Positions 4,545 through 13,178 of a DNA stretch of 57,336 nt are shown here, piece after piece (positions within the stretch are counted from its first letter, which is position 1; each line of letters starts with the position of its first letter). The notes beneath the pieces were generated by a model, which had not been told where the DNA came from, ran no database searches, and was given only the letters and a program-made list of their open reading frames with translations. A program made the position numbers and the translations under genes. Source of the DNA: an uncultured Lachnospiraceae bacterium (GTDB lineage: Bacteria > Bacillota > Clostridia > Lachnospirales > Lachnospiraceae); assembly GCA_949502235.1 (NCBI GenBank), contig CATBDC010000020.1, positions 1-57,336 on the forward strand. Direction: 5' to 3'.

Positions 4545-4586
4545 TTTTATTATAAAACACAGGGAGGCACTTTTCAATGCCTCCCT
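4545..4586 (-). terminator. Terminator after the cohesin-anchor gene
   Basis: On the minus strand AGGGAGGCA and TGCCTCCCT (plus 4578-4586 and 4561-4569) form a 9-bp stem around 8 bases, followed by GTGTTTTATAATAA. It lies 20 bases past the stop of the cohesin-domain gene. Confidence 0.7.
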
Positions 4587-4605: not shown

Positions 4606-5571
4606 TTACCGCCTTCTTTTCTGGCTCTGCCTGTATATAATCCAGTAGATCCAGGCCATGATAAGAAGAACACAAAGAAGTCCTGCCATCACATAAAGTA
4701 TCACCGGTGAAGAGGACTTAAGCTTTGCGCTGTCAGAGTCCTTCTGGCTCTTATTATGCTTTTCCTCAGCGCTTGAAGGGCTGTTATTCTTAAGATTCCC
4801 CATTGCATTTTGAAGATTCTGAAGAGACTCCTCCTTCTCTTTTTCTGAAGCATCCTTCGATTTCAGGGTATTTTCTGCCTTTTTCAGTGCATCCTCCATG
4901 ACCTGATAGCTTTCCTTCGTATACATGCTGCTATCGTAGCCCTTTGCCGCGTCCACAGCCTGCCACCCGGATGAATTTCCTCCGGTGCTTCCCCCGGCGC
5001 TGCCGGATCCGCCGTTAGTTCCGGGCGTGTTTCCTCCGGGTACTGTTACGTCCCCGCCTCCTGCAGGAGTTATACGAAGTTCAGGCAGCTCTGTAAAGCT
5101 TACAGGCTCTTCCTTAGACCTCCCGGGGAGCTTTAAGGCTCCTTCCTCTGGAACACGGACAGTAAAGGGCTGCCCCGTCCCGCTGCTATCTAAAACTGCA
5201 ATACTTCCAAGCAGCAGCTTCTCGCCGCTCTGGCTGAAAATCCCTTCAGTTCCTGCAATATAAAGGTTCAAAATACCGCTCTCCGGATGATACCGGTACT
5301 CCTTTACCTTGGCATTTACAAGAGACGCCTCACTGAACTGGAAGGAAACATTCGATGCCCCAGAACCCTCTGGTATCACATTAAGGCTTAGCTGGAGAGA
5401 GGAAATCCCCTCTCCTGCGGCTTTGGGAACCCCCAGCCTTACTTCCGCATTCTGCCCGTTTCCATTAAACTCTATGGTTTCCTCCCCGGCATCTGCAGCG
5501 GCGGCCAGTGCCGCCGGAGCCGCGGATATTATCAGTACGGCTAAGAAAAGCCGCAATACATATTTTCTCAT
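4606..5571 (-). CDS. Membrane-anchored surface protein with cohesin-like domain and FIVAR module
   Basis: A 321-residue surface protein. Residues 1-24 form a signal peptide (basic start, hydrophobic core, AAPAALAAA). Residues about 30-165 read as an immunoglobulin-like cohesin fold: alternating beta strands, FSEASLVNAKVKEYRY, then GILNLYIAGTEGIF and GEKLLLGSIAVL. A Gly/Ser/Thr linker (about 170-205) precedes a FIVAR-like helical module (about 208-262), a charged stretch, one transmembrane helix (about 289-311) and a basic tail QSQKRRR, giving a C-terminal membrane anchor without an LPxTG motif. It starts 3 bases after the stop of the dockerin-bearing M60 protease, so the two are surely co-expressed. 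I infer it displays the protease by cohesin-dockerin binding. The cohesin call rests on strand pattern and context. Confidence 0.7.
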   Translation of the reverse strand: MRKYVLRLFLAVLIISAAPAALAAAADAGEETIEFNGNGQNAEVRLGVPKAAGEGISSLQLSLNVIPEGSGASNVSFQFSEASLVNAKVKEYRYHPESGILNLYIAGTEGIFSQSGEKLLLGSIAVLDSSGTGQPFTVRVPEEGALKLPGRSKEEPVSFTELPELRITPAGGGDVTVPGGNTPGTNGGSGSAGGSTGGNSSGWQAVDAAKGYDSSMYTKESYQVMEDALKKAENTLKSKDASEKEKEESLQNLQNAMGNLKNNSPSSAEEKHNKSQKDSDSAKLKSSSPVILYVMAGLLCVLLIMAWIYWIIYRQSQKRRR

Positions 5572-5574
5572 ATC

Positions 5575-8500
5575 CTACTCCCCTATCTGAATTTCCGGAA
5601 GCGTCTGCGGCATACCTTCGAATAAAGAATCACTGACCATACGCTCCCCTTCATTTGTCAGGGCATCATCCACACGGTACAGCTCTGCGCGCACCTTCAC
5701 AAGCTTCGTAAGATCAACGGTATCCTGCGGATCAATCCAGTAGATCCATGTGCCGTCTGAAACATCCCTGATATTTCCTGTTTCCGGAACATCCGCCAGA
5801 ATCGTCTGGTATGCTTTGAGCTCTCCCTTGTCATTAAGGCCTCCTACTACATTGCCCTCCTGATCATAGAGTATTACCACATTGTAGGCCGGATTGCCTT
5901 TGTAGGAGCCGGTAAATACAATAGAACCCTTCGGAATCACTTCATTCTTCTCTTTATCGTATACAAAGTCGCTTCCCAGTCTTCCGATTGCCGCCTTTCC
6001 TTCTCCGGTACGCCTGAAATCCACATTATCCCCGGTCACGCCAAGTATATCAAGCTCTGAAACCGTAACGTCCTTCCCAGACATATTTTTCACTGCCAGC
6101 TTCACTGCCGTAGTCTTGTAGGAGGCAATATTTCCTTTCTTTTCACTTTCAAAGTTTACAGTCTGTACCTTATCCTCCGTAAAGCTTCCTGCCGAGACGC
6201 TCTTCCAGCCTTCCCCATCGCGGACAAATATCTCATAATCTTTCACAGGCGTTCCCTCGCCTGCCGTATACTTAAGTCCTGTAATGGTAAGGGACTTATG
6301 GAATTCCAGAATTATCTCTGCATTTGCCCCTGCCGTGCCGGTATAAGAAGTATTCGTATTGTTATCAATAGCCTTATCTGCCAGATTTTCATTTTCCTTT
6401 TCACATGTATGATCCGCCGCATCCTCCGGCTTTAGCACGGCCTCGCCCACTGCTGTCATATCGCTGGTACTGATGGTAAAGCCCGCCTTGTCAATGCTTC
6501 CGTCATGTTCAATCTTTACAGGCTCCAATGTCTTAGCCGCCGAACGGTTCAGGTATTTATCAATCACAGTAACCTTGTAGGTAACCACCCTGTTATTCAT
6601 AGTCGTTACATAATCACTGAAGGTCCCTGATGCGGCTTCCTCTGCCGTTACAAATGCCACAGGCTCTTCCATCATAATACCGCCGGAAGTGGTGCCCCGC
6701 ACAATCTCATATCCCAGAACGTCCTCTGCCGGAACCAGCTTTGAATCCAGCACAAAGTCTACCTGATTAGCTGATGCCTGATTTACCTGGGCTCTGGTGC
6801 CGTCTCCGACTGCCTCCACGGTACCTTCTGTATTTAACGAGCTTCCCCCGTTCTGCATACGGTATACGCGGGCCTCGTCATTTACGTAATAAATAGCTCT
6901 TGTTTCCTTGCCGAACTGGGAGGCATAAGCAATTGTATCCTCATCCGGAGTAAAGCCCCAGCGTCTGAAAAATTCAAGGATATCCTTTTCTGCCGCCGCA
7001 CAGGCAAGCCGCATGAGGTTCTGCTGTGTGCCTCCGGAAAGAGAGAGCGCAGTTCCCCCCGGCGCCGGCGCCTTTGCCGGTGCTCTCGAATAGCTGTCGA
7101 CACGGGCAAAAAACAGATTTTTAAGCTGGTCGGCATGGTTCTCATAGGTTTTATAATTATACCCGTTATCATAAGCCAGATGAAGCTGCCAGTACAGGCC
7201 AAGCTGTGTAAATACATTGGAAGCAGGGCCTTGTTCGCCTGACGTCACCTTATTATATACATTGCTGTACTTAAAGCGCACACTGTCATTTGTATCCTTT
7301 GCCTGGGCAAGGACAGAGAAGTAATTGTTAGTCACCTCCGCCACCACGTAACTGCCCTGATTAATGCAGTGGCCGATCTCATGGGCAATTCCCCATCCGA
7401 AATACCTGCCGTCTACATACCTTCCCTCTGCGTCCGCCTGCACCGGAGTACAGTTTACCATACCTGCAGTCTCATTATACTCAATGCCGATATGGTTGCC
7501 GGAAGCGTACATAAATGCACCTGAAAACATTCTCTGGTAGCGGATATTCAAGTGTCTCACCGGATATCTGTCTATCACATTTTCCGCACTGTTATTCAGC
7601 CCCTTATGCTGATAGAACAGATGCATCATGCCCTCCATTGCATCCATGGAGTCTACAAGCTTCCGGGCCCGTTCAGAAATACTTCCGCTTCCGGTTCCTG
7701 CCCAGATCTGCTGTGCCGGAAGAGACAAAAGCATGGTATCCAGCATAATATCAGAAGCGCCTAAAATACAGTTATGGGCGTCATACGCTTCCTCTTCCCC
7801 GTGAACCTGGGTGTGAAGGCTGCTTATATTATTTACATACTCATCCAGCTCGGTTAAGAAGCTCTCCGCTTTCTCAAGCCTTACATTCCGGTCGCTCACT
7901 TTGTAAAGGTCAAGGGTCGGGACCTTTGTTCCTCCGCTTACTCTTACCGCATACTGATCACTGTCGCTGTTCCCTGTATACTGAATGTAGAGCGCCCCTC
8001 CCTTTTCTCCTTCTACGGAGCTAATCTGAGGAATGGTAATCTCATTCTTTCCAATGGTAAGCGCTTTTTTCCCGGTAGGATTTACCCCCTGACTCACACC
8101 GTCTGATTCACTGTGATACTGGGTCACTACAAGCTGCAGGTTCGTGGATTCTCCTGTTTTCTTGCTGTTATGCCCTACATATACAGTAATCTCTTCACCT
8201 GCCGCAGCCGTGATTCCGAGAGGCTGCCATGCATTCAGGCCGCCAAAGCCCCTGTTCACATCACTCGTAGTAATGCCGTTATGGACAAGATACGGCTCTG
8301 CCAGATTCGTTTCATTCAGAATCTCTTCCGCAGTCCTAAGCTCTCTTTCAAGCTTTTCCCTGTCCGGATGATACTCCCCGCTGGCCGCATCCGGCGTATT
8401 GAGCCTTGTTCTTAAGGCGTCAATAATCTCCTGTGTCACATCCTCACGCAGCACCGTATGCAGATCATCCGCATAAAGGGCCATAATGTCATCCTCCAGG

Positions 8501-10815
8501 GTATCATACTGGTAAAAATATACCTCTGCTATGGTATTTGTGCCCGATGCAGTCCCCCGCGCGAGTCCGAACTGGATCTTTTTCACTGCGGCTGCCTCCG
8601 GCAGGGTTATCATATAGTAAATTCTGTTTTCAGAGTCTTTCTTTTGCTGAACGGACGCGCTGCGCAGGTTTGTCTCTGTGCCTTCTCCATCCCAGTAACG
8701 CACCTTAACATAGCCATAACTGGCATTTCCCGGCATTGCCTCCGTAACCGCGAAGGACTTCATCATATAAGCCTCATCAAATTCATAGACAAGTCCATGA
8801 CTTGCAGATAGATTACCGCCTACAGGATTAAATCCTCCGGAATCCCACGAGCCATGATAATGATAGGAAAGAGGATTATTATCTACGGTTCCCCAGGCGC
8901 TCTTTCCTTCTGTATCTAAGGGACTGTCCTTCATCTCTCCCTGCAGGTACTGGGCGCTGATGATATGCTCACTTGTCTTTCCTTCCTCTGAAGCATTGAT
9001 AAGTCTGTACTTCGGCACCTGGGCCGGATCGGGATTTATCGTTTTTGCCGTGCTTGTAAGGGATGGCTTTCCTTCTCCCAGCTCATTCACTCCTGTTACA
9101 TAAAGCTCGTATTCTGTCTCGTTCTTCAGATCTGACAGCACATAGCTGCTTGATGTAATGTTTTCCCTTTTTAAGTAGTCCCCTGCTCCTTTTTCCCGGT
9201 AATACAGATTGTAGGTATCCGCATCCTTTACCGCCTTCCAGGAGACCTGAATGGATTTGAACTGCCCCACAGCCTTTAGACTATCCGGGGCATCCGGCTT
9301 TTTGTCTGTTTTCGGCACCACACTTATGTAATCGCTGTAACCGCTTCTCCACAGGCCGTTTACAGACTGCACCCTTACCTTATATTCCTCTTTATTTACG
9401 AGCTTTTCGCCGTTCAAGGACGATACGTTCAGGGTATTGTTCTTTGCAGCTTTTATCTCCTGCTCATCCCCGTGGGAAATCTCCACCTCGTATCCCGTAA
9501 TATTCACGCACTTATCCCAGGTAACGGTAAAGCTCTTATTTCCCGGCTCTGCCGAAAGATTCTCCGGGATATTCATCTCCGGCGCCGGGATACGGTTCTC
9601 CATGCCGTTTACAAACTCCACCTTTGATATCTCTGCAAGTGTCTTGTTCTTTTTCATTCCCATAATTGTGAGGGTAACCTTCTTTACAGCAATCCGGGAA
9701 CCCAGATGGATACTGATTGCTCCATCCGGCTCTGTCTCCGGCTTCACGCTCTCTTTTGCCAGAAGGTACTTAACCCCTTCCTCAATGGGCACATCTATAT
9801 GCTGCTCTGCCCCGTTTTCTACATAATCAATCCCGACAATACCCTTCGTTATCTGATCCCCGCCGCCGGCCTCAAGCACAATTCCATCCACCGGGAATTC
9901 TTCCTTTTCCGGAAAATCAAAGGTTATAGAAACCGGATTATCTGCTGAAAGCTCTTTTCCGTCCGCCCGTGATATCTTCACACTGCTTTCATTTTTCAGC
10001 AGGGCGCTTAAGTCTCCCTGGGCTGCTCCGTCACACTTAATAGCAACTGCCCCTGCCGGCACGCTGACCTCAACTGTTGAATCTGTGTTCCCGCTGACCT
10101 TATATCCTTTTGTGAAATACTCCAGATCCACAATGTCAACCGTACCGTCACCGTTCATGTCGTACTCCGGTGACTGGTTTCCGGAGTCAACAGCATTCAC
10201 AAGTATATCCTTATCTGTATCATCCACCACACCATCGCCGTTCACATCGCCGATTAAAAGAATACCCGGATGAGGAACTCCCTCATCATATTTCACCACT
10301 CCTGTAGTCAGCTCCACGGAGTAGGCCCAGCCCTCCACAAGAATCTCCTGGCTGAAGGCTGCAAAGCCGGGCGCTGTTACGGTAAGTGTATAGCTGCCGT
10401 CCGAAAGATCTTCAAAGGTTACTCCGCCTTCCTCCCCGCTCTTTCCCGAATCTGCCGCAAGGACGATCTTCCTATCCTCCTGATCTGTAAGTGAAATGGT
10501 AAATTCAACGCTTTTTTCTAAGCGCACCGCTGCCCGGACAGTGACATTCACCTGTCCGTACGACTTTTCTTCATCTTCTGGATTCTCTGCCTGCTCTTCT
10601 TCTTTCACGATGGCAGCATCCGGCGTCTCGTCTTCGTCTGCCCCGTCTTCGTCTGTAACTTTTTCATCTTTTACGTCTTCTGCGTCCGGCTCCGAAGAAA
10701 CACTGCTCCCTGCCGTGTCTTCTCCTGTTCCTTTATCCGGCTCTGATGCAAAAGCCTGAAGGCCTGATGTGAAGATAAGCACCAGTGCAAGCAGAAATGC
10801 TATTCTCCGCTTCAT
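5575..10815 (-). CDS. Secreted dockerin-containing M60 (mucin-type glycoprotein) metalloprotease
   Basis: A 1746-residue exported protein. Domains in order: signal peptide (1-24); Asp/Glu-rich linker (about 25-90); a small beta domain (about 92-180); a type I dockerin (about 189-240) with two calcium loops, GDVNGDGVVDDTDKD and DMNGDGTVDIVDLEY; a further beta domain; two fibronectin type III repeats (about 410-605); discoidin-like beta regions; the M60-like catalytic domain with HEIGH at 1145-1149 and a downstream Glu at 1160, the family's HExxH-x(8-24)-E zinc site; then further beta modules including a second galactose-binding-like domain (about 1480-1590). M60 enzymes cleave O-glycosylated proteins such as mucin. 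There is no cell-wall anchor of its own; the downstream cohesin-like protein probably supplies it. A promoter and a dyad lie upstream. The N-terminal dockerin position is unusual. Confidence 0.88.
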   Translation of the reverse strand: MKRRIAFLLALVLIFTSGLQAFASEPDKGTGEDTAGSSVSSEPDAEDVKDEKVTDEDGADEDETPDAAIVKEEEQAENPEDEEKSYGQVNVTVRAAVRLEKSVEFTISLTDQEDRKIVLAADSGKSGEEGGVTFEDLSDGSYTLTVTAPGFAAFSQEILVEGWAYSVELTTGVVKYDEGVPHPGILLIGDVNGDGVVDDTDKDILVNAVDSGNQSPEYDMNGDGTVDIVDLEYFTKGYKVSGNTDSTVEVSVPAGAVAIKCDGAAQGDLSALLKNESSVKISRADGKELSADNPVSITFDFPEKEEFPVDGIVLEAGGGDQITKGIVGIDYVENGAEQHIDVPIEEGVKYLLAKESVKPETEPDGAISIHLGSRIAVKKVTLTIMGMKKNKTLAEISKVEFVNGMENRIPAPEMNIPENLSAEPGNKSFTVTWDKCVNITGYEVEISHGDEQEIKAAKNNTLNVSSLNGEKLVNKEEYKVRVQSVNGLWRSGYSDYISVVPKTDKKPDAPDSLKAVGQFKSIQVSWKAVKDADTYNLYYREKGAGDYLKRENITSSSYVLSDLKNETEYELYVTGVNELGEGKPSLTSTAKTINPDPAQVPKYRLINASEEGKTSEHIISAQYLQGEMKDSPLDTEGKSAWGTVDNNPLSYHYHGSWDSGGFNPVGGNLSASHGLVYEFDEAYMMKSFAVTEAMPGNASYGYVKVRYWDGEGTETNLRSASVQQKKDSENRIYYMITLPEAAAVKKIQFGLARGTASGTNTIAEVYFYQYDTLEDDIMALYADDLHTVLREDVTQEIIDALRTRLNTPDAASGEYHPDREKLERELRTAEEILNETNLAEPYLVHNGITTSDVNRGFGGLNAWQPLGITAAAGEEITVYVGHNSKKTGESTNLQLVVTQYHSESDGVSQGVNPTGKKALTIGKNEITIPQISSVEGEKGGALYIQYTGNSDSDQYAVRVSGGTKVPTLDLYKVSDRNVRLEKAESFLTELDEYVNNISSLHTQVHGEEEAYDAHNCILGASDIMLDTMLLSLPAQQIWAGTGSGSISERARKLVDSMDAMEGMMHLFYQHKGLNNSAENVIDRYPVRHLNIRYQRMFSGAFMYASGNHIGIEYNETAGMVNCTPVQADAEGRYVDGRYFGWGIAHEIGHCINQGSYVVAEVTNNYFSVLAQAKDTNDSVRFKYSNVYNKVTSGEQGPASNVFTQLGLYWQLHLAYDNGYNYKTYENHADQLKNLFFARVDSYSRAPAKAPAPGGTALSLSGGTQQNLMRLACAAAEKDILEFFRRWGFTPDEDTIAYASQFGKETRAIYYVNDEARVYRMQNGGSSLNTEGTVEAVGDGTRAQVNQASANQVDFVLDSKLVPAEDVLGYEIVRGTTSGGIMMEEPVAFVTAEEAASGTFSDYVTTMNNRVVTYKVTVIDKYLNRSAAKTLEPVKIEHDGSIDKAGFTISTSDMTAVGEAVLKPEDAADHTCEKENENLADKAIDNNTNTSYTGTAGANAEIILEFHKSLTITGLKYTAGEGTPVKDYEIFVRDGEGWKSVSAGSFTEDKVQTVNFESEKKGNIASYKTTAVKLAVKNMSGKDVTVSELDILGVTGDNVDFRRTGEGKAAIGRLGSDFVYDKEKNEVIPKGSIVFTGSYKGNPAYNVVILYDQEGNVVGGLNDKGELKAYQTILADVPETGNIRDVSDGTWIYWIDPQDTVDLTKLVKVRAELYRVDDALTNEGERMVSDSLFEGMPQTLPEIQIGE

Positions 10816-10845: not shown

Positions 10846-10871
10846 CCAGTATATGAGCTGTCATATACTGG
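10846..10871 (-). promoter_or_regulatory. Perfect 11-bp inverted repeat at the predicted 5' end of the M60 operon transcript
   Basis: CCAGTATATGA and TCATATACTGG (10846-10856 and 10861-10871) flank a 4-base spacer. The repeat starts about 10 bases downstream of the predicted -10 box (10882-10887). There is no T-run on either side, so it is not a terminator; it could be an operator or a 5'-terminal mRNA hairpin. Confidence 0.5.
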
Positions 10872-11015: not shown

Positions 11016-13178
11016 ATGGCAGAAGAACAGAACACAGCGTTAAAGCCGCAGCCGGAAGCCGCGGTATTTGCCTTGGATATAGGAACACGGAGTATTATCG
11101 GCATGGTAGGCACCGTCCATGACGGAAAGGTAGATATTATTGCCATTGAAAAGGAAGAGCATACGGAGCGCGCGATGATAGACGGGCAGATTGAAAATAT
11201 CGGGCGGGTATCCCTGCTTGCCGGCAGGGTAAAGAAAAGGCTGGAGGAAAAGCTGGGCTTTCAGCTGAAGCGTGTCTGTGTCGCGGCTGCCGGACGGGCG
11301 CTTAGGACAAAACGCGCCGATTATGAGCTTACACTTCCAGGCCCGAAGCTTATTGATGACGAGATCATAAGCAGGCTTGAGGCGGGCGCCATCAGTCGGG
11401 CCGAGGAATTATTTGATGCTGAAAATGCTGCCCAGAATGACTCCCGGCGTTTTTACCTGGCAGGCTATACTGTCTGCCAGTACTATCTGGATCAGTACAT
11501 GATTTCCAGCCTGAAGGATCATAGGGGAAAAACCATAAAGGCGGATTTAATTGCCACCTTTCTTCCAAGTGAGGTTGTGGAAAGCCTGTACACAACGATG
11601 AATAAAGCGGGACTGGATGTTGTCAGCATCACCTTAGAGCCTATTGCCGCCATTAATGCGGCAATTCCTGAAAATTTAAGGCTCCTTAATCTTGTCATGG
11701 TGGATATTGGCGCAGGAACCTCCGATATTGCTGTCTGCACAGGCGGAAGCGTCATCGGGTATACCATGGCAACCGTAGCTGGTGATGAGATTACGGAAAT
11801 GCTTATGAAGGAATATCTGGTAGATTTTCCTACTGCGGAGCTTATAAAGGCACAGATCGATTTACAGCAGGAGGTAACCTTTACCGATATTTTAGGCTTT
11901 GAAAAGACTGTCTCGCAGGAAGAGCTTCTCCGCGCGATACAAAATGCCTCCCAGCTTTTATGTAAGGAAATCTCCGATAAGATCCTGGAGGTGAATGGAA
12001 ATGCCCCCTCCGCCATCTTTCTTGCCGGCGGCGGCAGCAAGCTGGCCGGCTTAAAAGAAGGGCTTACCGAAGCCCTTAAGATGGACGAAAACCGTATTGC
12101 CATAGCCGGAAATAATTTTCGGACAAATGCATACTCTGATGAGTATGACCTGAATAATCCAGAATATACGACTCCTCTTGGAATTGTCATATCCTCTGGG
12201 TTAAATCTCATTAATGACAGCTTCCGGGTAACCTTAAACGGAAAGCCCGCAAAGCTGTTCCGCAGCGGAAGCTTTACAGCGTTAAACCTCTTAATGATGA
12301 ACGGCTACAGCTACCAGGATATTTTAGGGCAGACGGGCTTAAGTCTTGTAATAACAATAAATGGAAAAAGGAAAATATTTTACGGCATGGCCGCCCAGCC
12401 TGCCTCTCTTCTTATTAATAAAAAGGACGGCAGACTCTCCGATATCATTCATGCGGGAGATAGCATTGAATTCACCCCAGCCGTTCCCGGAGTATCCGCA
12501 AGCAGGCGGCTCGGCGAGCTTGAGGGCGCTTCAGAGGCTCTTGAGGTCACATTAAATGGCGAGCCGGCTTCCCTTGACACCCCTCTTAGAAATGGGGATA
12601 TTGTCCGCATACGGACACATGAGAATGAGGAAAGCACGGAAGACAAAGAAGCAGACACTGTTGAATTCGATTTCGAGAATAAAGCAGATACAGATGATCT
12701 GGACTGGGAGGTTGTTTCTGTCATAGATCATATACCGGGTAATATTACTTCCGAAGAAGCTGTCCTTGAAGCCGCCGCTGCAGATAAAACAACAGATGGG
12801 CATGAAACAGACCTGGATGAAGAAGCAGACTGGGATGGCTGGGACGAGGATGAGACAGACGGGGATGACTGGGATGCTGACGAAGCCTATCTGGAGTCCC
12901 GGCCTGCTGCTCCTTTTTCAGCGCCGGACACTTTTCAGAAGCCGGCCCCTAAGCTCCCCCGGCCCGATGTCCTTCTTCATTTAAATAATGCTCCCTTACG
13001 CCTTCCCGGTAAGGAAAACGGAGAGCCCTATTATCTGATGGACATGATTGAATATTCCGGCATTGACATCAAGCACCCCAGGGGACGTGTAAGGCTAACC
13101 GTAAACGGGAGCCCGGGAATGTTCCAGCAGGAGCTTAGGACCGGCGATGTGATATGCATTGTAGACGAAGGCGACTGA
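11016..13178 (+). CDS. FtsA/PilM-like actin-fold ATPase with repetitive C-terminal extension
   Basis: A 720-residue protein. Residues about 15-400 form an actin/Hsp70-fold ATPase of the FtsA/PilM group: phosphate-1 motif ALDIGTRSIIGMV (19-31), phosphate-2 motif VDIGAGTSDIAV (229-240) and adenosine motif FLAGGGSKLAGL (335-346). FtsA is usually about 400-430 residues, so about 300 are added here. The extension holds units with TLNGKPAKL (about 405), TINGKRKIF (446), TLNGEPASL (510) and TVNGSPGMF (694), three of which are followed by LxxGDxIxI-type turns, resembling beta-grasp modules. Residues about 531-630 are very acidic and contain Trp-Asp runs. No amphipathic membrane-targeting helix is obvious at the C-terminus. 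The gene precedes maf by 33 bases. A role in division or envelope assembly is inferred from the fold only. Confidence 0.8.
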   Translation: MAEEQNTALKPQPEAAVFALDIGTRSIIGMVGTVHDGKVDIIAIEKEEHTERAMIDGQIENIGRVSLLAGRVKKRLEEKLGFQLKRVCVAAAGRALRTKRADYELTLPGPKLIDDEIISRLEAGAISRAEELFDAENAAQNDSRRFYLAGYTVCQYYLDQYMISSLKDHRGKTIKADLIATFLPSEVVESLYTTMNKAGLDVVSITLEPIAAINAAIPENLRLLNLVMVDIGAGTSDIAVCTGGSVIGYTMATVAGDEITEMLMKEYLVDFPTAELIKAQIDLQQEVTFTDILGFEKTVSQEELLRAIQNASQLLCKEISDKILEVNGNAPSAIFLAGGGSKLAGLKEGLTEALKMDENRIAIAGNNFRTNAYSDEYDLNNPEYTTPLGIVISSGLNLINDSFRVTLNGKPAKLFRSGSFTALNLLMMNGYSYQDILGQTGLSLVITINGKRKIFYGMAAQPASLLINKKDGRLSDIIHAGDSIEFTPAVPGVSASRRLGELEGASEALEVTLNGEPASLDTPLRNGDIVRIRTHENEESTEDKEADTVEFDFENKADTDDLDWEVVSVIDHIPGNITSEEAVLEAAAADKTTDGHETDLDEEADWDGWDEDETDGDDWDADEAYLESRPAAPFSAPDTFQKPAPKLPRPDVLLHLNNAPLRLPGKENGEPYYLMDMIEYSGIDIKHPRGRVRLTVNGSPGMFQQELRTGDVICIVDEGD

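Follow-up and report, generated by a model that had tools for sequence, protein, structure and literature searches.

Type II X-dockerins tie cellulosomes to cell surfaces, and in Clostridium (Acetivibrio) thermocellum the X-dockerin ends a scaffoldin that bears many enzymes. The adaptor and autonomous cohesins of Ruminococcus flavefaciens belong to a plant-fibre cellulosome with many dockerins and are not known to be encoded as an enzyme-specific pair. In Clostridium perfringens, according to the main text of a 2026 report, all five cohesin proteins also bear a glycoside hydrolase domain, and the same text describes the Limousia mucinolysome, which was found by means of Pfam models and comprises multi-cohesin scaffoldins, dockerin-bearing glycosidases and peptidases, and a surface-anchored scaffoldin with LPxTG, cSca5 (PMC12997984). 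The term M60 is absent from that main text, and the parts of the paper considered here describe no pair of an M60 enzyme with a single cohesin (PMC12997984). A 2012 survey of M60-like (PF13402) proteins, in the portion considered here, recorded a dockerin in 2 of 415 proteins, and the Clostridium and Bacillus sequences drawn in it show no evident surface anchor (PMC3267712). Here we describe a locus in a 57,336-nucleotide stretch of DNA from an uncultured Lachnospiraceae bacterium (contig CATBDC010000020.1, positions 1 to 57,336; hereafter the window) in which an M60-family metallopeptidase gene is followed by a partner gene for a protein with a cohesin-like domain. We consider it likely that the two genes form a surface display unit, in which the X-dockerin-bearing M60 enzyme is clipped with calcium onto the cohesin-like domain of its membrane-held partner.

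Both genes lie on the minus strand. The metallopeptidase gene (5575..10815) encodes 1746 amino acids (aa), and the partner gene (4606..5571) encodes 321 aa that, judged from the open reading frame (ORF), NCBIfam matches and hydropathy, comprise a signal peptide, a cohesin-like domain, a linker, FIVAR-like helices, a C-terminal membrane helix and a basic tail. The TAG stop codon of the first gene is followed by three bases (GAT) and then by the ATG of the second, in agreement with the 3-base spacing given in a first-pass annotation of the same DNA. The cohesin-like domain of the partner is a beta domain (residues about 25-165; 5077..5499) that sequence searches failed to name: it had no match to the Pfam cohesin model PF00963, an NCBIfam scan of the partner named no cohesin, PF00963 was absent among the 25 listed out of 34 Pfam families matched by 73 members of the partner-domain family, and a profile of the domain found no match among PDB sequences at E values up to 10. 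PF00963 likewise found no cohesin anywhere in the window's own genome assembly, which is about 96% complete. Because all of these searches left the domain unnamed, a comparison of folds was needed. An AlphaFold model of the domain (predicted local distance difference test [pLDDT] score, 90) has the jelly-roll beta fold common to solved cohesins, VIA ranks 1-29 were all cohesins, and the closest Foldseek match was a cohesin of C. perfringens. The first-pass annotation had named a predicted fold other than cohesin as grounds for refutation, and the 29 best structural matches run counter to that outcome.

The Foldseek list for the domain also holds CBM3 and collagen-adhesin domains (1amx at rank 2, 4b9f and 3zqx). 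Cohesins and CBM3 modules share a fold, and the partner's beta domain could on this ground be a CBM3-like jelly-roll module that binds glycans, or an adhesin, with the dockerin of the enzyme binding some other cohesin. We regard this as improbable, since the 29 top VIA ranks hold only cohesins, no other cohesin for the dockerin was found in the genome assembly, and the partner follows M60 enzymes that carry an X-dockerin (see below). Downstream of the cohesin-like domain, a Gly/Ser linker leads to a FIVAR-like helical stretch (residues about 205-260; 4792..4959), for which NCBIfam gave a weak match, with the LnbX tail (E 5.9e-5), and which matches many large ORFs in other genomes as well. The best Pfam matches of the partner, Orf78 and RIFIN, were below cut-off, lay in its helical and membrane part and were set aside as composition matches. 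A hydropathy scan placed a hydrophobic helix at residues about 284-315 (about 288-315 as mapped to 4627..4710), followed by basic residues, and with the signal peptide this agrees with the earlier view of the partner as membrane-bound.

On the enzyme, the dockerin (residues about 186-238; 10102..10260, minus strand) is recognizable from its sequence, with two calcium-loop motifs, DVNGDGVVDDTD and DMNGDGTVDIVD, and from its model. It belongs to dockerin type I by Pfam (PF00404; residues 189-232, 26.9 bits, cut-off 22.9), scores 32.3 bits in a whole-genome PF00404 search, and PF00404 was matched in 56 of 78 family members at E <= 0.01. On its N-terminal side is an X-module (residues about 87-172; 10300..10557, minus strand), a beta sandwich of the carboxypeptidase-regulatory or PEGA kind, for which the Pfam match to CarboxypepD_reg was below cut-off and the model had a pLDDT of 90.5. 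In the model the X-module and dockerin form one structural unit, as in type II X-dockerins, and the 8 best rows in a structural comparison of this model were all type II X-dockerins. The dockerin that had been placed near the N terminus of the M60 protein is therefore there, at 189-232, and needs to be redescribed as part of an X-dockerin with its preceding X-module rather than as a lone dockerin.

The pair is conserved well beyond the window. In a first search with the partner against 200 family genomes, 22 were matched (the window's own included), mostly through a FIVAR-like part in large, unrelated ORFs; outside the own genome, 11 listed places matched from the first 30 residues of the partner on, and at all 11 the M60 gene was directly upstream or fused (L036 and L037), the contig of L041 holding the M60 end only. 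We then scanned genome contigs with an M60 alignment and kept the best 80 of at least 479 confirmed relatives, ranked by likeness to full-length, X-dockerin-bearing M60 proteins. A cohesin-like domain was encoded downstream on the same strand (72 loci) or fused to the C terminus of the M60 protein (4 loci: L081, L082, L084 and L095) in 76 of the 80. The four loci with no partner were L085 and L110, where the contig has no room for one, L118, with 152 bases left, and L120, where 1149 bases are left and hold none. The distance between the M60 gene and the partner gene had a median of 20 bases and was at most 50 in 61 of the 72 loci. An X-dockerin was present in 78 of the 80, the other two (L099 and L119) beginning inside the gene; this proportion gives no rate for M60 proteins at large because the loci had been ranked against X-dockerin M60 proteins. 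One of the alignments built from these loci comprised the window and 72 of them, 2 near-copies having been taken out of the 74 that were within a limit on length. Named records among the 80 include Oscillospiraceae, Ruminococcus, Roseburia, Dorea, Erysipelotrichaceae and Acetatifactor muris.

A fairer comparison came from 397 family genomes searched with three profiles, for the cohesin-like domain, the X-dockerin and the Pfam M60 domain. The cohesin-like profile found 30 places in 29 genomes. At E <= 0.001 the X-dockerin profile reached at least 100 genomes, most of the matches being short and covering the dockerin or the X-module alone; a full X-dockerin, defined as E <= 7.1e-15 by a cut chosen after the list had been viewed (the next match being at 3.0e-9), was found at 36 places. 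These lie in 35 genomes, among them all 29 with the partner profile. In two of these (G042 and G158) the two profiles match different contigs, apparently a single gene split at a contig end, and in the other 6 of the 35 (G379, G366, G176, G280, G283 and G111) the ORF adjoining the M60 gene is a weaker cohesin-like match, with E values of 1.7e-11 to 0.008 in a small search and G111 the weakest. The Pfam M60 model matched 41 genomes, namely the 35 and G054, G100, G110, G140, G179 and G242. The partner was present by profile in none of the 6 M60 genomes that lack a full X-dockerin, against 29 of the 35 carriers (Fisher P = 2e-4), which further argues against a glycan-binding partner. In G054, G100, G110 and G140 the profiles found no dockerin in the M60 ORFs and no cohesin-like ORF in the fetched stretches, and the M60 enzyme of G100 has, by eye, an apparent C-terminal membrane helix of its own. 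G179 (L200:8950-10992) and G242 (L195:6230-7960) were counted as misses; each has a divergent M60 protein with a weak dockerin and a secreted-looking neighbour that the cohesin-like profile did not recognize, and the two may represent the pair in a yet more remote form. G306, from the window's own genus, lacks the X-dockerin, the partner and the M60 domain by all three profiles, and across the phylum the partner profile matched 1 of 398 genomes, a thin sample, that one being the window's own. Overall, the 80 loci and the 397 genomes show that the pairing is beyond chance.

To see whether the cohesin-like domain varies with the dockerin in particular, we took 70 pairs (69 loci and the window) and compared, by correlation, its pairwise distances with the distances of nine M60 regions, leaving out L061, L068, L072, L078, L082, L099 and L119 and the partnerless L085, L110, L118 and L120. 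The plain correlation with the dockerin was 0.535 and was not the highest, three other regions reaching 0.556-0.557; when each region was controlled for all others, the dockerin came first at 0.29, the next region standing at 0.17. A scan of 160 segments of 57 residues had its four best starting at residues 160 to 190, all of them overlapping the dockerin, none of the 148 segments outside the dockerin reached its 0.272 (one stood at 0.262), and half-samples of taxa put the dockerin first in 234 of 300 cases. That the partial correlation peaks at the dockerin, and not at the putative glycan-binding modules of the enzyme, is a further point against a glycan-binding role for the partner domain. 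Mutual information with average-product correction, calculated between dockerin and cohesin-like columns, showed no excess over other segments at the low power of 70 sequences (effective number, 49), and most of the top pairs (16 of 25) lay in loops. Conservation, the existence of fused polypeptides and dockerin-centred covariation together point to a dedicated pairing of the M60 enzyme with its partner.

The part of the partner that varies is its tail. Simple rules applied to 95 rows labelled 51 tails as a membrane helix, 6 as LPxTG, 3 as cell-wall-binding repeats, 18 as having no recognized helix, 1 as a dockerin and 5 as fused, with 11 unlabelled; the labels are unsafe for L068 and L078 (cut short), L039 (helix further in) and L191 (probably wall-binding), and L194 is probably the same locus as L082. 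All 6 LPxTG tails are in Ruminococcus records. The window's partner ends in a hydrophobic helix and then basic residues with no LPxTG, so the observation that the anchor ends in a helix instead of LPxTG was correct for this protein and does not extend to a rule of the system. A tree of the catalytic region (94 rows), from which L050, L077 and L095 (presumed, from equal lengths, to be on the same contigs as L033, L035 and L036) and L192 (no motif) were left out, needs at least 12 changes of tail type. Pfam scans of ten partners or fused ends found fn3 in L034, Big_2 in L035 and choline-binding-type repeats in L040, and a dockerin over cut-off in L119, L084 and L036 and below it in L082; L103, L124 and L093 had no Pfam match. 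In many partner tails (for example, L047, L048, L051, L058, L060 and L079) a TGD motif directly precedes the membrane helix; judged by eye, this resembles a variant sorting signal and not a plain membrane anchor. In one Ruminococcus locus (L119:4218-4880) the partner is a protein of 220 aa with a cohesin-like domain and a dockerin, a miniature adaptor.

These tails bear on a further possibility, namely that the two genes share no more than a transcript, with the partner acting as a chaperone of the protease, as its inhibitor or as some unrelated surface protein. Equally tight linkage would be expected of a chaperone or inhibitor, and the binding of cohesin to dockerin is here a prediction; a partner of that kind would nevertheless have no need of a membrane, LPxTG or wall-binding tail, and would leave both the X-dockerin and the cohesin fold unexplained. 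We therefore think this explanation very unlikely.

Returning to a docked pair, one clade has the M60 domain and the cohesin-like domain in a single chain (L036, L037, L081, L082 and L084). The fused proteins keep the N-terminal X-dockerin wherever the contig covers the N terminus, and a single change on the tree accounts for all fused forms. Because the N-terminal X-dockerin is kept and at least two fused proteins gain a C-terminal dockerin, it is conceivable that they dock onto themselves or chain head to tail; speculatively, they may instead join a larger complex.

The last possibility raises the question of whether the dockerin in the window is itself meant for a larger multienzyme complex, with the adjacent partner one of several usable cohesins. 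A single cohesin-like domain, a single X-dockerin and a single M60 protein are present in the assembly of the window's genome; several cohesins with several dockerin enzymes, the mark of a cellulosome or mucinolysome, were not found in it. The proposal of a self-contained system, in a genome with no Pfam cohesin, accordingly fits the assembly, and the genome search for other dockerin proteins that the first-pass annotation had called for supports it: there were two Pfam dockerin matches, the second being at the start of contig C35 in a gene that seems, by eye, to be truncated. At that place (L044), 1118-1603 on the minus strand and about 1453-2900 on the plus strand appear to be truncated or frameshifted remnants of two opposite-strand genes that end in type I dockerin sequence; the first holds the only other Pfam dockerin match and the second was judged by eye. 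Across the 35 carriers the evidence cuts both ways. At most one Pfam dockerin was found in 22 of them and no Pfam cohesin in 16, whereas 19 have some cohesin match and 5 are dockerin rich, with 18 to 37 Pfam dockerin matches each. The dockerin-rich genomes include the fused carriers G098, G158 and G220 (27, 18 and 37 matches), together with G157 (19) and G255 (27), which have separate partner genes; fused forms, as scanned in L084, L036 and (below cut-off) L082, end in further dockerin sequence. Since the fused forms need a single change on the tree, their link with dockerin richness may be one event and not three, and G157 and G255 are rich yet unfused; we rest no argument on this link. In some species the pair appears, from gene content, to live beside a larger dockerin system; for the window, with its single X-dockerin and single cohesin-like domain, we rate a larger complex as improbable.

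The M60 protein itself, encoded on the minus strand, begins with a signal peptide, the X-module and the dockerin. A conserved region without a name comes next, and after it two fibronectin type III domains (residues about 414-592; 9040..9576, from two Pfam fn3 stretches), a segment alignable with part of a solved enzyme of the Zmp type, the catalytic core and an F5/8 type C domain; the C-terminal region is again conserved. The core (Pfam stretch 1137-1287; 6955..7407) belongs to peptidase family M60 (PF13402, 40 bits against a cut-off of 25.8) and has the HEXXH motif and distal glutamate, as HEIGH at 1145-1149 and E1160, which were invariant across 10 aligned sequences, the window's included. 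The pattern HExGH..E(I/V)TN was present in 79 of the 80 related loci, L050 having ETTN. The F5/8 type C, CBM32-like domain (residues 1474-1561; 6133..6396; 34.2 bits, cut-off 28.2) fits glycan binding. By sequence the nearest solved relatives, at distant similarity, are an F5/8 type C domain protein, the ZmpC and ZmpA glycopeptidases and the O-glycopeptidase BcM60. We take the F5/8 type C domain protein to be ZmpB of C. perfringens, presumably also the source of most of these Zmp glycopeptidases. ZmpB is assigned to C. perfringens in PMC9513282, and BcM60 to Bacteroides caccae in PMC13355702. Because these relatives are glycopeptidases and the F5/8 domain would suit glycan binding, the enzyme likely cleaves mucin-type glycoproteins, a reading drawn from the M60 family, which is known to attack proteins of mucus. 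The only hydrophobic stretch in a hydropathy scan of the M60 protein was its signal peptide; the protease therefore has no membrane anchor of its own, in line with the first-pass annotation, which gave it no wall anchor.

These features suggest how the unit may work. Both proteins would be exported by their own secretion signals, after which the X-dockerin would clip with calcium onto the cohesin-like domain of the partner. In this way the partner probably keeps the enzyme on the cell surface. Tethered at its N terminus, with its catalytic and glycan-binding modules facing outwards, the M60 enzyme would then cut O-glycosylated host proteins such as mucins. The partner would be a dedicated single-site dock and not a multienzyme scaffold; in relatives the dock would be fixed by LPxTG or cell-wall repeats, would bear a dockerin of its own or, in one clade, would be fused to the enzyme. 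A broader reading, on which we are evenly divided, is that a class of cohesin unseen by the Pfam cohesin model, matched one to one with the enzyme's X-dockerin, is the usual means of holding M60 mucin-type proteases at the surface in Lachnospiraceae and gut Ruminococcus, the recognition pair being kept while tails are swapped freely and the fused clade docks onto itself or chains.

Several features flank the pair. Directly after the partner stop codon lies a terminator-like hairpin of 11 pairs with a T-rich tail (4561..4586, minus strand), found by pattern only and, like the X-module, absent from the first-pass annotation; terminator-like sites numbered 7 in the region against 5.8 in shuffles. 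An 11-bp inverted repeat with a 4-base loop, again a match by pattern, lies 30 bases upstream of the M60 start (10846..10871), between it and a divergent gene that begins at 11016, and is a possible operator or leader RNA hairpin. The divergent neighbour (11016-13178) resembles FtsA/PilM-like ATPases and has a weak ThiS/TGS-like match and an acidic stretch.

Among titles and abstract openings in the full-text literature, from which most subscription journals are excluded, we found no M60 protease with a dedicated single-cohesin anchor gene. All 25 places matched by PF00963 in the 35 carriers lay, by eye, on contigs other than that of the partner gene, and Pfam-based surveys of gut cohesin-dockerin systems are therefore likely incomplete. 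On the strength of the models, this appears to be an enzyme-specific pair of a cohesin fold and an X-dockerin, conserved across gut Lachnospiraceae and Ruminococcus, whose cohesin-like family the Pfam model misses in the genomes examined. One enzyme matched with one dock would make a natural display module of minimal size, and the choice between keeping a mucus-degrading enzyme on the cell and releasing it decides which neighbours have a share in its products.

Among the closest known systems, the counterpart in C. thermocellum is the type II X-dockerin and its surface cohesin (PDB 2b59, 5k39, 5g5d and 3kcp). By analogy, the pair would work like this mode of surface attachment reduced to one enzyme and one dock; it differs in that the X-dockerin is at the N terminus of the enzyme itself, with one enzyme per dock, and in that the cohesin-like profile of the partner matches no PDB sequence. 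The adaptor or autonomous cohesins of R. flavefaciens (PDB 4n2o, 4wkz and 8ajy), which are in the fold list, resemble the partner as single-cohesin proteins, with an X-dockerin partner in 4wkz. The X82 cohesins and FIVAR-dockerins of C. perfringens are similar in three respects, namely the closest Foldseek match of the partner domain, FIVAR-like helices and the Zmp glycopeptidases among the nearest catalytic relatives of the enzyme; here, in contrast, the cohesin-like partner has no catalytic domain and would be the anchor. With the Limousia mucinolysome the pair shares a gut Bacillota host, a cohesin-dockerin architecture, dockerin-bearing peptidases and a surface-anchored component, but the definition of that system required scaffoldins with several cohesins, and in the genomes examined the Pfam cohesin model did not pick up the partner family described here. 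Finally, like the M60 proteins of the 2012 survey, as far as the portion considered here describes them, the enzyme has CBM32 and fn3 domains, and here a second gene would supply the anchor (PMC3267712). For a large gut group, the surface anchor missing from that survey may thus be a divergent cohesin encoded by the neighbouring gene.

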